Below are positions 52,202-57,375 of a DNA stretch of 64,000 nucleotides, piece after piece. Origin of the DNA: Halomonas elongata DSM 2581 (GTDB lineage Bacteria > Pseudomonadota > Gammaproteobacteria > Pseudomonadales > Halomonadaceae); contig NC_014532.2 of NCBI RefSeq assembly GCF_000196875.2, positions 1,302,001 to 1,366,000 on the forward strand, written 5' to 3'. The position numbers and the translations under genes were made by a program. The first letter of the stretch is position 1. Each line of letters begins with the position of its first letter. Under the pieces are notes generated by a model. That model was not told the DNA's origin. It searched no databases and saw only the letters and a program-made list of their open reading frames with translations.

Positions 52202-52389
52202 GGGGTTTCCTTTCTCCGAGGGCATGGATGGCGCGATTGAGACTGCCGAGATGGCTTGGGGTTCCGGGCCTGTGCCGCTATGCTCAACTGCTGAGGCATT
52301 CATGAAGGTGTCAGGATAACGTATTCGAGCGGCATGGCGTCATGTCATGGACGTTCGGCCCTTCATCTACACGGCAGGGAAATGCGCAA

Positions 52390-53424
52390 ATGGGATTGAC
52401 GAACAAGACCACGAATCGCCGCCGCAGCAAGGACGAGGTGCTGGAGCGTCCGCAGTATGGCTGGATCTGGAAACCGTTGCTGGTGCTGCTGATCCTGTAT
52501 CTGGTGGTGACGGTGGCGCTGGGCGTGTGGTGGAGTCGGACCCCGGCGGGCTTCGATGTTGAGCAGGCGGTGGCCGAGCAGCGTGATGGCGGAACGGCTG
52601 CGAGGGGTGCGGTGACCGTCGCCGGCCTGCGGACCACCCTGGCGACCCTGATCGACAAGCCCGGCGGCTATCTGCGCAACGACATCGCACCGCCGGGCCT
52701 GTGGCTCGACAACATGCCGGCCTGGGAGTACGGCGTGCTGCGTCAGGCGCGCACCCTGGTGGCCGCCATGCCGGCACTGGCGGATGGGTCGGCCGAGACA
52801 TTCGAGGCGACGGCGACCCGGCTGCGTGGCGATGGTCGCGACTGGCTCTATCCGTCCACGGAACACCGTATTCGCCAGGCGCTCGACGATCTCGACGCCT
52901 ATCTGGTCCAGCTCGGCGAGCCCGGACATGCCGGCTTCGGTGACGATGGGAAGGGGCTGGCACCCTGGTTGTCGCAGGTGGCCAAGGAGCTCGACGAGAT
53001 GGGAGGGCGGCTCTCCGCCAGTGTCGGCGACAAGGAGCGGCTTGCCGAACTGGGCGTGCCGGTGGCATCGCTGCCGGAGTCGACGCCCTGGTACCGCGTC
53101 GACAATGTCTTCTTCGAGGCTCGAGGACAGGCCTGGGCGCTGCGCCACCTGCTGGCGGCGATGCGTCGCGACCAGGCGGACGTGCTGGAAGCCGCCGGGC
53201 TTGCCGAGCGTTGGGACGCCCTGGCGGCGGAGCTGGAGCGTAGCCAGCGTCGCCTGTGGAGCCCGGTGGTGCTCAACGGCTCGGGCTTCGGCATCTTCGC
53301 CAATCACTCCCTGGTGATGGCCAATCATGTGCTCCGGGCTCGCGATCTGGTGCGCGAGCTGGCCGAGGGGGTGGCGGCGCCGGTGGAGGGATCTGGCGCC
53401 GAAGCGCCGTCGAACGAAGGATAG
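52390..53424 (+). CDS. DUF2333 family inner-membrane protein
   Basis: A 344-residue protein with a short basic N-terminus, one membrane helix (WKPLLVLLILYLVVTVALGVW) and a large periplasmic domain that includes GGYLRNDIAPPGLWLDNMPAWEYGVL, the DUF2333 hallmark, and WYRVDNVFFEARGQAWALRHLL. Function unknown in all species. It is divergent from dsbD and convergent with ppa, with a bidirectional terminator after it. Confidence 0.85.
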   Translation: MGLTNKTTNRRRSKDEVLERPQYGWIWKPLLVLLILYLVVTVALGVWWSRTPAGFDVEQAVAEQRDGGTAARGAVTVAGLRTTLATLIDKPGGYLRNDIAPPGLWLDNMPAWEYGVLRQARTLVAAMPALADGSAETFEATATRLRGDGRDWLYPSTEHRIRQALDDLDAYLVQLGEPGHAGFGDDGKGLAPWLSQVAKELDEMGGRLSASVGDKERLAELGVPVASLPESTPWYRVDNVFFEARGQAWALRHLLAAMRRDQADVLEAAGLAERWDALAAELERSQRRLWSPVVLNGSGFGIFANHSLVMANHVLRARDLVRELAEGVAAPVEGSGAEAPSNEG

Positions 53425-53501: not shown

Positions 53502-54032
53502 TCAGGCCTTGCCGTAGGCGGCCACGGACTTTTCGATGGCCTTGCGGGCGGCTTCGGCGCCTTCCCAGGATTCCACCTTAACCCACTTGCCCTTCTCGAG
53601 ATCCTTGTAGTTCTCGAAGAAGTGGGCGATCTGCTGGCGCAGCAGTTCCGGCAGGTCGGTGACTTCCTGGATGTCGTCGTAGAGGCTGGACAGCTTGGCA
53701 TGCGGCACGCACACCAGCTTGGCGTCCTCGCCGGCCTCGTCGGTCATGTTGAGGATGCCGACCGGGCGGGCGCGGATCACGCTGCCGGGCGTGACCGGAT
53801 AGGGCGTCACCACGAGAGCGTCGAGGGGGTCGCCGTCATCGGCCAGGGTGTGGGGGATGAAGCCGTAGTTGGCCGGATAGAACATCGGGGTGGCCATGAA
53901 GCGATCGACCAGCAGCGCGCCCATGTCCTTGTCGATCTCGTACTTGACCGGCGCATGGTTGGCGGGGATTTCGATCGCCACGTAGACGTCGTTGGGCAGG
54001 TCCTTGCCGGCGGGGATGTTGTCGAAGTTCAT
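53502..54032 (-). CDS. ppa: inorganic pyrophosphatase
   Basis: A 176-residue family I pyrophosphatase: [44 protein letters not shown] with the metal-binding Asp residues, and [17 protein letters not shown]. It hydrolyses PPi released by biosynthesis. It is close to a PPi-dependent phosphofructokinase gene that uses the same metabolite. Confidence 0.96.
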
Positions 54033-54245
54033 GAGGGCGTCCTTTTCTGGCGAGTGTCCGGGTCGAGTGGCAGTAAATGCGGCGAATTATACGAAGCCGC
54101 CGGGGGGATTACCAATCCCCCCGGGAAATGGTTTTTTAGGAGATTACGGCTTTGGTGGACGAGCCAGCATCGCGGACGACGTGTATGATGGCCCCCTGTT
54201 GAGCCGGCCCGGCCGGCGATTTGCCGCGAGCCCGAGGAGAATGTC

Positions 54246-55970
54246 TTGGCATCCGCGCAATTGTCTCTGAGTTACGGTCAGGCCTTCGTGGCGCCGGACC
54301 GGCGTCGGCATCGCAGCTCGATGTCGGTCCTCACGCCCGAGGTGCTGCAATTGTCGACCAAGGGCGCCTGTGCCCTGATCAGCGACTCCACTTCCCGCAA
54401 CGCCCTGGCCAAGCAGGCCGGCGACATCAGTGTGCGTGGCTTTCTGGCCGATTACTTCTCGACGCCCGACCATTGGGACGTGAAGACCTCGGTCAACCGT
54501 GTGTTGCGTTCGCTCAATGGCTGGTGCTTCGGTCAGAGCCGTCAGGTGAGCGATGGCAGCTATGTGAGCTCGTTGTCCGTCATGATCTATCGCGGACGCG
54601 AGGCGCACCTCTTCCATATGGGCGACACCCTGGTATTCCGCCTGCGCGGTGCCGAGTTCGAGCAGCTTTCGCGCGATCACGTCACCGACCTCGGAGGATA
54701 TCGCTATCCCTCCCGGGCGTTGGGCATGGATGCCAGCATCGACATCGACTATGCGCGTCTGCCGCTCAAGCAGGGCGATATCTTCCTGTTCACCACCCAG
54801 GCGGTGCAGGGCACCCTGATGCCATCCGACTATGTCGGCCTGATTCGCCAGGATGCCAGCGACCTCGACGCGGCCTGCGAACGCCTGGCGCAGACCGCCC
54901 GGGAGCGCGCCCAGGAGCGGGGCTACGGTGGCGATCAGTTCTGCTTTCAGCTGGTGCGCATCGATGAGTTGCCCGAGGAGGAAGAGGATCGGCCCGGCAA
55001 GGTCTACGGTGACCTGCCGATCCCGCCGGAGCTGTCGGTGGGCGAGCGCCTGGATGGTCTCGAGGTCCTGTCGGTGCTGTCGCGCACGGCGCAGTCCCGC
55101 GTCTATCGCGTGCGCGATGTACGCAGCGGCCGGGAGATGGTGATGAAGGCGCCGAGCCCCGAGCTGTCCACCCGCAATGCCTACCTGGAGCATTTCCTGT
55201 TGCAGCAGTGGGTGGTCGAACGGGTGCATTCGCCCTTCGTGGTCAAGGTCATGGAGCCTTCGCGGCCGCGCCGTTTCCTCTATTACCTGATGACCTATGT
55301 CGAAGGCGAAACGCTCACCGCCTGGGCGCGCCGGCATCCTCAGGCGAGCCTGGCGCAGCGGCTGGATATCGCCATCCAGATGGGCAAGGCCCTGCAGGCG
55401 TTGCACCATCGCGATCTGCTGCACCAGCAGGTGCATCCCGACAACATCTTGATCGACAAGCACGGTCAGGTGGTGCTGGCCGACTTCAGCGCCTGCCATA
55501 TGCGCGATGTCGATGGTCATCGACGCTCCCGTAACCTGGTGCGCCAGGTGGGGCTGACCGAGCACAGCGCTCCGGAATATGCCCTGGACGACGAAGTGGG
55601 GCGGCGCAGCGACCAGTATTCGCTGGCCTCCACGGTCTACTGGTTGTTCACCGGTGAGTTGCCTTATTCGCTGCCGACCAAGGACCTGCTGCGGCACACC
55701 GATCTGGAGCAGATGACCTATCGCAGTGCCCGGACCCTCAATCCCGAGGTATCGCCGGCACTGGATGACACTCTGCGCCGTGCCCTGGCACCCCAGCGTG
55801 CGCTGCGCTTCCGGCGGCTGTCGGAATTTCTTCATGCCCTGCGGGGGCCGAGCGGCGAGGCGCGGGAGTTGTCGGAGGCGGTCGAGTCGTCCCGCGAGCC
55901 GACTCGCTTCTGGCAGGGTGTGGCGGGGATTTTGCTGTTGCTGTTGGTGTTGTCCTGGTTGTTGCGTTAG
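54246..55970 (+). CDS. PP2C-kinase fusion with degraded catalytic motifs
   Basis: A 574-residue protein of the bifunctional Ser/Thr kinase/phosphatase family: PP2C-like domain about 1-240, protein-kinase fold about 275-530, C-terminal membrane helix (GILLLLLVLSWLLR). In the phosphatase half the usual ADG is SDS (residue 47), GDS-R is GDTLVF, and the TTDG motif is TTQA (Gln 185). In the kinase half the ATP-binding Lys 301 is kept (MVMKAPS), but HRD-LK is HQQVHPDN (393-400), lacking the catalytic Asp, and DFG is DFSA (Asp 413). So either activity is doubtful; it may act as a membrane-bound sensor or scaffold. Confidence 0.85.
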   Translation: MASAQLSLSYGQAFVAPDRRRHRSSMSVLTPEVLQLSTKGACALISDSTSRNALAKQAGDISVRGFLADYFSTPDHWDVKTSVNRVLRSLNGWCFGQSRQVSDGSYVSSLSVMIYRGREAHLFHMGDTLVFRLRGAEFEQLSRDHVTDLGGYRYPSRALGMDASIDIDYARLPLKQGDIFLFTTQAVQGTLMPSDYVGLIRQDASDLDAACERLAQTARERAQERGYGGDQFCFQLVRIDELPEEEEDRPGKVYGDLPIPPELSVGERLDGLEVLSVLSRTAQSRVYRVRDVRSGREMVMKAPSPELSTRNAYLEHFLLQQWVVERVHSPFVVKVMEPSRPRRFLYYLMTYVEGETLTAWARRHPQASLAQRLDIAIQMGKALQALHHRDLLHQQVHPDNILIDKHGQVVLADFSACHMRDVDGHRRSRNLVRQVGLTEHSAPEYALDDEVGRRSDQYSLASTVYWLFTGELPYSLPTKDLLRHTDLEQMTYRSARTLNPEVSPALDDTLRRALAPQRALRFRRLSEFLHALRGPSGEARELSEAVESSREPTRFWQGVAGILLLLLVLSWLLR

Positions 55971-56048: not shown

Positions 56049-56108
56049 GAGCCACGATACGAGAATCTCGTATCGTGGCTCGTGGCTCGTGGCTCGTGGC
56101 TCGTGGCT
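56049..56108. repeat. 15-bp hairpin followed by CGTGGCT tandem array
   Basis: GAGCCACGATACGAG pairs exactly with CTCGTATCGTGGCTC around AAT, and five tandem copies of CGTGGCT run from 56074 to 56108. It lies between the convergent PP2C-kinase and pfp genes and may terminate both. Confidence 0.8.
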
Positions 56109-56115
56109 CGCAAGC

Positions 56116-57375
56116 TTAAAGCTTGAACTCGGGCAGTTTGCGTTCGACGCGATGCTTGGCGAGCTTGGCGACTTTCGGCAGGCCGTTCTCGAAGGGCGGG
56201 AAGTCCTCGCCCTGAATCAGCGGGGCGAGGTAGCGCCGGCACTGTTCGGTGATGCCGAAGCCGTCCTCGCGGATGAAGTCCCGGGGCATGAACTTCTCGC
56301 GGTTGGCCACGTCGGCCAGCGGTGCGGCCTCGACGGTCCAGGCATAGGGCTCGTCGCTGATGCGCTTGATGGCGGGCATCTTGGCGTTCTGTCCGTCAAG
56401 AGCCAGTTCCACGGCCTTTTCGCCGACGGCGTAGGCCTGGTCGACGTCGGTCTTGGAGGCCAGGTGGCGCGCGGCGCGTTGCAGGTAGTCGGCCACCGCC
56501 CAGTGGTACTTGTAACCGAGATCCTGCTTGATCATGCCGGCCAGTGTCGGTGCCACGCCGCCGAGCTGGCGGTGACCGAAGGCGTCGGTATTGCCGGAAT
56601 CCGCCAGGAAGGTGCCGTCCTCGTAGCGGGCTCCTTCGGACACCACGATCACGCAGTAACCGCACTTCTTGACCGACTCCTCGACGCGGGCCATGACCGC
56701 GGCGCGGTCGAAGTCGATCTCGGGGAAGATCACCAGGTGCGGGGGATCGCCCTCGCCCTGGCCGGCCAGGGCGCCGGCGGCGGCGATCCAGCCGGCGTGG
56801 CGGCCCATCACTTCGAGCACGAAGACCTTGGTGGAGGTGGCGCACATGGAGGCGATGTCCAGGGAGGCCTCCAGGGTCGAGGTGGCGATGTACTTGGCCA
56901 CGCTGCCGAAGCCCGGCGAGTTATCGGTGATCGGCAGGTCGTTGTCCACCGTCTTGGGAACGTGGATGGCGGTGAGCGGATAGCCCATCTTCTCGGAAAG
57001 CTGCGAGACCTTCAGGCAGGTGTCGGCGCTGTCGCCGCCGCCGTTGTAGAAGAAGTAGCGGATGTCGTGGGCGCGGAAGACCTCGATCAAGCGCTCGTAC
57101 TGGGTGCGGTGGGTCTCGATGTCCTTGAGCTTGTAGCGGCAGGAGCCGAAGGCGCCGGCCGGCGTGTGACGCAACGCCGCGATGGCTTCGTCGCTCTCCT
57201 GGCTGACGTCGATCAGGTCCTCGGTCAGGGCACCGATGATGCCGTTGTGTCCGGCATAGACCTTGCCGATGCGGTCGTCGTGGCGCCGGCAGGCTTCGAT
57301 GACGCCGCAGGCGCTGGCATTGATCACGGCGGTGACGCCGCCGGACTGGGCATAAAAGGCGTTGTGCTGAGCCAT
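56116..57375 (-). CDS. pfp: pyrophosphate-dependent 6-phosphofructokinase
   Basis: A 419-residue phosphofructokinase beginning MAQHNAFYAQSGGVTAVINASA, with NGGGDSADTCLKVSQ and AIHVPKTVDNDLPITD. The Lys in PKTVDND and the GGGDS form of the phosphate-donor loop are typical of PPi-dependent enzymes, which act reversibly in glycolysis and gluconeogenesis. MGRHAGWIAA and PEIDFDRA complete the substrate site. ATP-PFK is less likely. Metabolic proximity to ppa is noted. Confidence 0.9.
   Translation of the reverse strand: MAQHNAFYAQSGGVTAVINASACGVIEACRRHDDRIGKVYAGHNGIIGALTEDLIDVSQESDEAIAALRHTPAGAFGSCRYKLKDIETHRTQYERLIEVFRAHDIRYFFYNGGGDSADTCLKVSQLSEKMGYPLTAIHVPKTVDNDLPITDNSPGFGSVAKYIATSTLEASLDIASMCATSTKVFVLEVMGRHAGWIAAAGALAGQGEGDPPHLVIFPEIDFDRAAVMARVEESVKKCGYCVIVVSEGARYEDGTFLADSGNTDAFGHRQLGGVAPTLAGMIKQDLGYKYHWAVADYLQRAARHLASKTDVDQAYAVGEKAVELALDGQNAKMPAIKRISDEPYAWTVEAAPLADVANREKFMPRDFIREDGFGITEQCRRYLAPLIQGEDFPPFENGLPKVAKLAKHRVERKLPEFKL

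Follow-up and report, generated by a model that had tools for sequence, protein, structure and literature searches.

A PP2C-kinase fusion kept throughout the Halomonadaceae is a predicted double pseudoenzyme

We report a PP2C-kinase fusion gene of Halomonas elongata DSM 2581 whose product has lost key residues of both active sites and which is fixed in this form across the Halomonadaceae. The gene lies in the stretch of DNA analyzed here, 64,000 nucleotides of contig NC_014532.2, hereafter the window. Its sequence points to a derived pseudoenzyme of the PP2C-kinase fusion family and not to an active fusion enzyme. The reading that we hold, with somewhat more confidence than doubt, is that of an ancient, still-selected double pseudoenzyme that would serve as a nucleotide-binding, tail-anchored, non-catalytic regulator of a predicted membrane partner. 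It draws on what was observed in this analysis, namely the losses, their fixation, a single clade, purifying selection, gene order and a predicted anchor.

54234..54239, + strand: Shine-Dalgarno-like GAGGAG 5' of the TTG start (sequence reading)
54246..55970, + strand: predicted double-pseudoenzyme gene, 574 aa with a TTG start, encoding a PP2C-like domain, a kinase-like domain and a C-terminal membrane helix
55902..55964, + strand: C-terminal membrane helix, residues 553-573 (hydrophobic stretch; helix in the model)

The order of PP2C domain, kinase domain and C-terminal helix is that of known PP2C-kinase fusions, with which the protein shares homology over its full length. No domain follows the helix at 553-573, which is conserved and a predicted tail anchor, and whose W556 is common to the pseudo and intact forms in column counts. 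At the aligned first position, 72/81 family loci have TTG and three GTG, the other six being later-starting matches. A sequence-only reading of this DNA had listed HQQVHPDN (393-400), DFS (413-415), SDS (46-48), TTQA (183-186), Lys 301 and a hydrophobic C-terminus (553-573), all of which are there as described. Its claim that both active sites have lost key residues holds too, from a list that proved incomplete: alignment to intact homologues adds further losses. An artefact or frameshift was rejected, since the relatives that were read show the identical frame and losses. Neither chance nor sequencing error accounts for the losses, given a 98%-identical orthologue and the absence of the HRD Asp and the alphaC Glu from 122/122 distinct sequences. 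A search of the organism's own genome for an intact paralogue of the 54246-55970 protein returned none at E up to 0.001.

Residues were counted by alignment column in these 122 distinct sequences, taken from 152 sequences of the pseudo form, and in 63 intact homologues. Rows dropped beforehand were L149 (alignment running past a stop), L163 (partial, from a genome 77% complete), L137 (the same gene as L122) and L164 and L165, which are other kinases. D47, D127, D185, K301, E320, D395, N400 and D413 are each present in 63/63 intact homologues, and intact motifs were confirmed in these 63 and in plasmid copies from Cupriavidus, Acinetobacter johnsonii and Methylobacterium. A regular-expression screen failed at least one motif in 15/36 extra and 13/31 intact rows, either because the pattern was too narrow (for example for ATDG or HLD) or because the row started late; the column counts decide the kinase sites, D47 and D185.

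The PP2C-like half carries the following features:

54252..54977, + strand: PP2C-like domain (about residues 3-244) whose predicted metal centre is gone (NCBIfam Stp1, PP2C structures)
54312..54317, + strand: R23-S24, replacing the PP2C acids E/Q-D of the "NED" site (column counts)
54384..54386, + strand: D47, the central PP2C metal Asp, retained in 121/122
54798..54800, + strand: Q185, replacing the Asp of TTDG; Q in 113, R in 8 and P in 1 of 122, D in 63/63 intact homologues

Profile matches to this half are faint: the NCBIfam Stp1 model scores 1.8e-8, far under its own cut-off, and Pfam PP2C_2 gives only 0.056 against the 574-aa protein, compared with 1.5e-13 against the intact homologue L191. 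Aligned to intact homologues, the PP2C N-E/Q-D becomes H22-R23-S24, with R23 in 121/122 and S24 in 120/122 distinct sequences; the intact set has E in 37 and Q in 22 at the first acid and D in 59 at the second, four of the 63 rows being gapped at this site. The Arg of GDSR is L129, and the DN pair reads D230-Q231, its Asp still being D in 80/122 and E in 28/122. D127 is retained in 122/122. Metal-binding acids that mark an active PP2C phosphatase are thus replaced (E/Q by R, D by S, the TTDG Asp by Q, R or P), as in a pseudophosphatase.

The kinase-like half shows losses of the same kind:

55029..55859, + strand: kinase-like domain, about residues 262-538 (Pfam Pkinase, 1.1e-24; PknA/PknB structures)
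55146..55148, + strand: K301, the beta3 (VAIK) lysine, retained; K in 120/122
55203..55205, + strand: Q320 in place of the alphaC Glu; Q in 122/122, E in 63/63 intact homologues
55422..55445, + strand: catalytic loop HQQVHPDN, with Q395 for the HRD Asp, H397 for the HRDxK Lys and N400 retained
55482..55490, + strand: DFS in place of DFG, D413 retained; D in 122/122

The HRD Asp is absent from 122/122 sequences, and a search for an alternative catalytic residue at its position, a finding that would have spoken against the pseudoenzyme reading, saw none: the position holds Q in 61, R in 37, G in 10, A in 5, N in 4, L in 2, H in 2 and S in 1. The HRDxK Lys is likewise absent from all 122 (H in 75, N in 18, T in 12, R in 8, S in 4, M in 2, and Q, C and A in one each); position 397 alone is no proof of loss, since it is Arg in those 8/122 and also in 20/63 intact forms, the other 43/63 having Lys. 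Residue 415 is S in 97, G in 12, A in 11, N in 1 and V in 1 of the pseudo set. The replacements in SDS and DFS, earlier counted among the losses, do remove the Gly, but the metal-ligand residues D47 and D413 are retained. Altogether, the residues expected of an active enzyme at E/Q23, D24, D185, E320, D395 and K/R397 read R, S, Q, Q, Q and H. The available text of PMC12599244 defines a pseudokinase by loss of the beta3 Lys, the HRD Asp or the DFG Asp, and the protein falls under this definition through the HRD Asp. N400 is retained in 118/122 sequences and lost in a small clade (L122, L123, L155 and L162), where L162 has lost K301 too; L144 has Arg at 301.

We built an AlphaFold2 model on 46 sequences, from the window and the family. 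Its match to PP2C structures spans roughly residues 3-244 (Z about 20-23) and that to kinases of the PknB type roughly 262-538 (Z 18-20); the model is weak (mean pLDDT 64.4), and we therefore claim no residue geometry from it. A solved full-length homologue was also sought, and the best 60 of 741 sequence matches are all kinases by name.

The altered form is fixed in the family. The gene is present in 200/201 Halomonadaceae genomes covering 24/24 genera and in 198/198 good genomes (at least 90% complete, at most 5% contaminated), the sole genome without it being 88% complete; no internal stops were seen among the family matches listed. On a quick tree of all distinct pseudo sequences below 77% identity plus L001 and a random selection of the others, the 55 pseudo rows form one clade with support 100 and a long stem, separate from the second, intact copies found in 13/16 multi-hit genomes examined. 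Four loci from two further genera (L247-L250; g9 and g12) and L149 match the loss pattern. Beyond the family, 293 order-level genomes (12 of the family) and 369 class-level genomes (three of the family) were searched for the pseudo form; among the matches listed outside Halomonadaceae none exceeded 38% identity, and the best loci were read for motifs. The gene is under purifying selection: its median dN/dS is 0.154 (926 pairs), close to that of mpl (0.136) and lower than that of dsbD (0.298), other neighbours giving 0.065 for ppa, 0.092 for pfp, 0.183 for accB and 0.348 for DUF2333. On a tree of the 122 distinct sequences, 68/574 columns show no change at all. The check that the sequence-only reading had proposed, conservation of the same substitutions in Halomonadaceae at high overall identity, came out in its favor. 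Fixed losses, a single clade and purifying selection argue strongly, as far as sequence goes, for the "dead or repurposed pseudoenzyme pair" that it had suggested.

Gene order tells where the protein comes from. Its immediate neighbors in the window are:

53502..54032, - strand: ppa, inorganic pyrophosphatase, head-to-head neighbor (NCBIfam 7.4e-87; 213 bp between starts)
56116..57375, - strand: pfp, PPi-dependent phosphofructokinase, convergent neighbor (NCBIfam 3e-195)

The arrangement of ppa on the minus strand followed by the gene on the plus strand recurs in 81/81 pseudo loci, with pfp downstream in 79/81. Outgroups carrying intact copies preserve pieces of a longer order: ppa- nirD- nirB- narK+ gene+ (L189, L191), nirD- nirB- narK+ gene+ mpl+ ubiX+ (L190), nirD- nirB- gene+ pfp- mpl+ (L200) and dsbD- DUF2333+ gene+ (L195), NCBIfam naming NirD, NirB and NarK in L191, NirB in L200 and NarK in L193. 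Read together, these pieces indicate an ancestral order ppa-nirD-nirB-narK-kinase-pfp-mpl. The window has this order minus nirBD and narK, which makes it most likely that its gene descends by position from a kinase/phosphatase of a nitrate cluster. Two other features of the neighborhood may be recorded here. A gene for a DUF2333 protein (window 52342-53424; Pfam 7.3e-75) is fast-evolving (dN/dS 0.35) and is found by tblastn at this site in 39/81 loci, and five tandem GTGGCTC units (window 56075-56109) lie between the pseudo gene and pfp.

The intact relatives keep company with transporters. We chose 23 intact loci (16 order-level loci from 14 genomes, four second copies and three of the ten plasmid copies listed), of which 19 have a transporter directly upstream on the same strand (NarK in 12, a formate/nitrite transporter, FNT, in 7); in one the FNT gene is on the opposite strand, and three have neither. 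FNT and NasC queries score under the curated cut-offs of their NCBIfam models, for which reason the FNT label rests also on the annotation of L244-L246, and NasC denotes here no more than a molybdopterin oxidoreductase of this type. This gene order suggests nitrate/nitrite transporters as targets of regulation by the intact relatives, the intact ancestor probably tuning the adjacent transporter from the membrane face. NarK, FNT, NirB, NirD, NasC and CynS were all sought beside the pseudo gene and occur in the flanks of none of the 81 loci; in 77 of these the sequence extends 4.5 kb or more in both directions. nirB itself is present in 152/198 good family genomes, including that of H. elongata, where it lies at another place; the pseudo gene is kept in the other 46, in which the search (up to four candidates per genome scored) found no nirB, so its present role is not tied to NirB. 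Among loci seen along the way, L205-L208 and L244-L246 have an intact kinase/phosphatase by a formate/nitrite transporter, sometimes with cyanase, and the transporter-kinase/phosphatase unit also occurs on plasmids of several genera. At L207:6485-7198 (G004), next to cynS, there is a PP2C-only relative; a formate/nitrite transporter and a full kinase/phosphatase lie downstream of it.

Candidates for a present partner were weighed on the same grounds. A functional tie to ppa and pfp was rejected, since outgroups have ppa, pfp and mpl near nirBD/narK and an intact gene, which makes the order probably inherited; this, together with a family copy located elsewhere, leaves Ppa and Pfp as weak partner candidates. 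That copy, in G024, has none of the ten window neighbors inside the 19.5 kb taken, and the copy in G017 has ppa about 5 kb off with other genes between. A partner shared by the deep branches was also rejected: when four G024 neighbors were compared with 23 loci, the sole match was an MCP-like protein (27-38%). A methyl-accepting-chemotaxis-like gene does occur near the kinase/phosphatase in L239, L242 and L243, from deep-branching family genomes, and in L244, which may be chance. An obligate partner kinase fared no better, as the only other kinase-domain match in the H. elongata genome is a different protein, found in 71/101 family genomes. This protein (L237:1294-3228; C1:1564433-1566364 in the genome) has 644 aa and an intact-looking kinase domain with HGDIKPSN and DWG; its gene adjoins one read as an acyltransferase (E2-like), and some of its family matches have in-frame stops. 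L164 and L165 (G044, G056), with frames of 2333 and 1181 aa, read HKQISPDN and then DFT, so that the HRD Asp is missing there too; they are perhaps CP1-type kinases.

The pattern of change on the tree of 122 sequences separates the nucleotide site from the phosphotransfer site. By Fitch counting, K301 changed twice, N400 twice, D413 never and Q320 never, the median column changing seven times; positions 395 and 397 changed 16 and 15 times, more than 75% and 73% of columns. There is precedent for such a combination. In the passages available from PMC4718504, HER3, which is without the HRD Asp and the alphaC Glu and retains the Lys, Asn and Asp, binds ATP (about 1 uM) together with one Mg, the alphaC helix being out. 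JAK JH2 is described there as similar: Asn replaces its HRD Asp, and the Lys-Glu bond is missing. From the retained K301, N400 and D413, the drifting 395 and 397 and this precedent, we infer that the kinase-like domain binds Mg-ATP without phosphotransfer. The same source ascribes some activity to HER3 and JAK2 JH2, so that "dead" is a prediction, and the losses of N400 or K301 in L122, L123, L155, L162 and L144 mean that nucleotide binding may be dispensable in places.

These elements fit a sequence of events in which an ancestor of the Halomonadaceae would have carried, between ppa and pfp/mpl, a PP2C-kinase fusion that belonged to a nitrate cluster. The neighboring nirBD and narK, and the catalytic residues of both domains, would then have been lost, the protein persisting tail-anchored after the nitrate genes had gone. 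Its kinase-like domain would bind Mg-ATP through K301, N400 and D413 in an alphaC-out, HER3-like manner and without phosphotransfer. The PP2C-like domain, its metal site replaced by R23-S24 and Q185, would be a protein-binding module in which, as a guess, R23 beside D47 stands in for a metal ion. Together the two would make up an adaptor at the inner membrane, responsive to nucleotide and controlling a probably membrane-bound partner. Sensing or scaffolding at the membrane, as proposed earlier, is what we too would infer. A more specific proposal falls a little short of an even chance and is put forward tentatively: a "double-dead" switch, both domains of which were disabled before the family diversified, with the ATP pocket kept under selection and the phosphotransfer residues released, could now work as an ATP-gated tail-anchored adaptor, representing a class of bacterial pseudokinase, fused to PP2C and lacking the HRD site alone, that lies beyond the groups described in the available text of PMC12599244.

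Other explanations accommodate part of this evidence. K301, N400 and D413 might be retained for the fold alone, or for a partner surface, in a pure structural scaffold that binds neither nucleotide nor metal. The gene persists in the one clade that has lost N400 (and K301 too in L162), and the portion of PMC12599244 at hand presents several bacterial pseudokinases as probably not binding ATP; yet exactly the three Mg-ATP residues are near-invariant, with 0-2 changes against 15-16 at the phosphotransfer positions, and we regard a pure scaffold as unlikely. The same three residues could also support new chemistry in the kinase fold, such as the AMP or glutamate transfer of SelO or SidJ, pseudokinases with such other activities being described in PMC12599244 as far as its text was available. 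We hold this improbable: 395 and 397 are not fixed to any new residue, the alphaC Glu is lost and neither the SelO nor the SidJ family appears in the Pfam or NCBIfam results at E up to 0.1.

The opposite concern is that "pseudokinase" overstates the case and that low kinase activity remains as in HER3, which sections of PMC4718504 name together with JAK2 JH2 and KSR2 as active despite missing or changed residues. With the HRD Asp, HRDxK Lys and alphaC Glu all absent from 122/122 (Arg at 397 in 8) and G, A, L and R among the residues at 395, we would be surprised by such activity. The view of the gene as a relic, decaying since the nitrate cluster left, takes account of the vanished nitrate neighbors and of the key residues lost from both sites. 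It is largely contradicted already by presence in 198/198 good genomes, the lack of internal stops among the matches listed, a dN/dS of 0.15 and 68/574 unchanged columns, and is very improbable. The nucleotide-binding, non-catalytic regulator is the reading that we prefer.

Taken together, our findings describe a natural experiment, with a loss at the base of one family, an intact positional ancestor and 200 genomes keeping the gene. Halomonas species are mostly harmless and genetically usable. The residue pattern predicts ATP binding without transfer, and the system would allow a direct test of whether a phosphorylation switch can survive purely through protein-protein contacts. Should annotation transfer the name "kinase/phosphatase" from intact relatives, it would mislead for the whole family.

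No description of a Halomonadaceae double pseudoenzyme was found among the titles and abstract starts listed from the open-access literature. "PP2C" and "Halomonas" are absent from the main text of a 2025 review of bacterial pseudokinases (PMC12599244). Kinase domains are mentioned in a 2025 paper on PP2C phosphatases of bacteria, whose main text contains none of the words "inactive", "pseudophosphatase" and "Halomonas". The review's ActPs1-3, GLW, CP1, DYD and DLHK families are also bacterial serine-threonine pseudokinases, several of them membrane-anchored, and the text available sorts them into two groups, one with all three motifs degraded and one with the ATP/metal motifs degraded; none of the seven is described there as fused to PP2C and lacking, among the three motifs, HRD alone. 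GLW proteins have GLW for HRD and Leu or Trp for the beta3 Lys, and the window protein, with HQQ and Lys 301 kept, is no member (PMC12599244, available text). CP1 proteins, some with a single degraded motif, have no membrane region and a link to a COG3899 ATPase according to the same text, unlike the window protein, which has the C-terminal helix and, within its 574 aa, no domains other than the PP2C-like and the kinase-like one.

HER3 resembles the window protein in having lost the alphaC Glu and HRD Asp and kept the Lys, Asn and DFG Asp (PMC4718504, in the passages available), a likeness that we claim for the way of working only. HER3 and JAK JH2 are not closely related to it and sit in a eukaryotic receptor or JAK context, whereas the window kinase-like domain has as its partner a PP2C without metal ligands. 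PP2C-kinase fusions have been on record since 2005, with PP2C and kinase joined in Pseudomonas (PMC1262709, available text).

The nearest known proteins are the Pseudomonadota "bifunctional protein-serine/threonine kinase/phosphatase" fusions, which are like the window protein in domain order, length and C-terminal helix. We take PA1782 to be a name for this kind of fusion. Identity to them is mostly 31-38% over nearly the full length, and the ancestral neighborhood is common to both. The Pseudomonadota fusions retain the PP2C acids and HQD/DFG intact, and most are found next to NarK or a formate/nitrite transporter; neither feature holds for the window protein.
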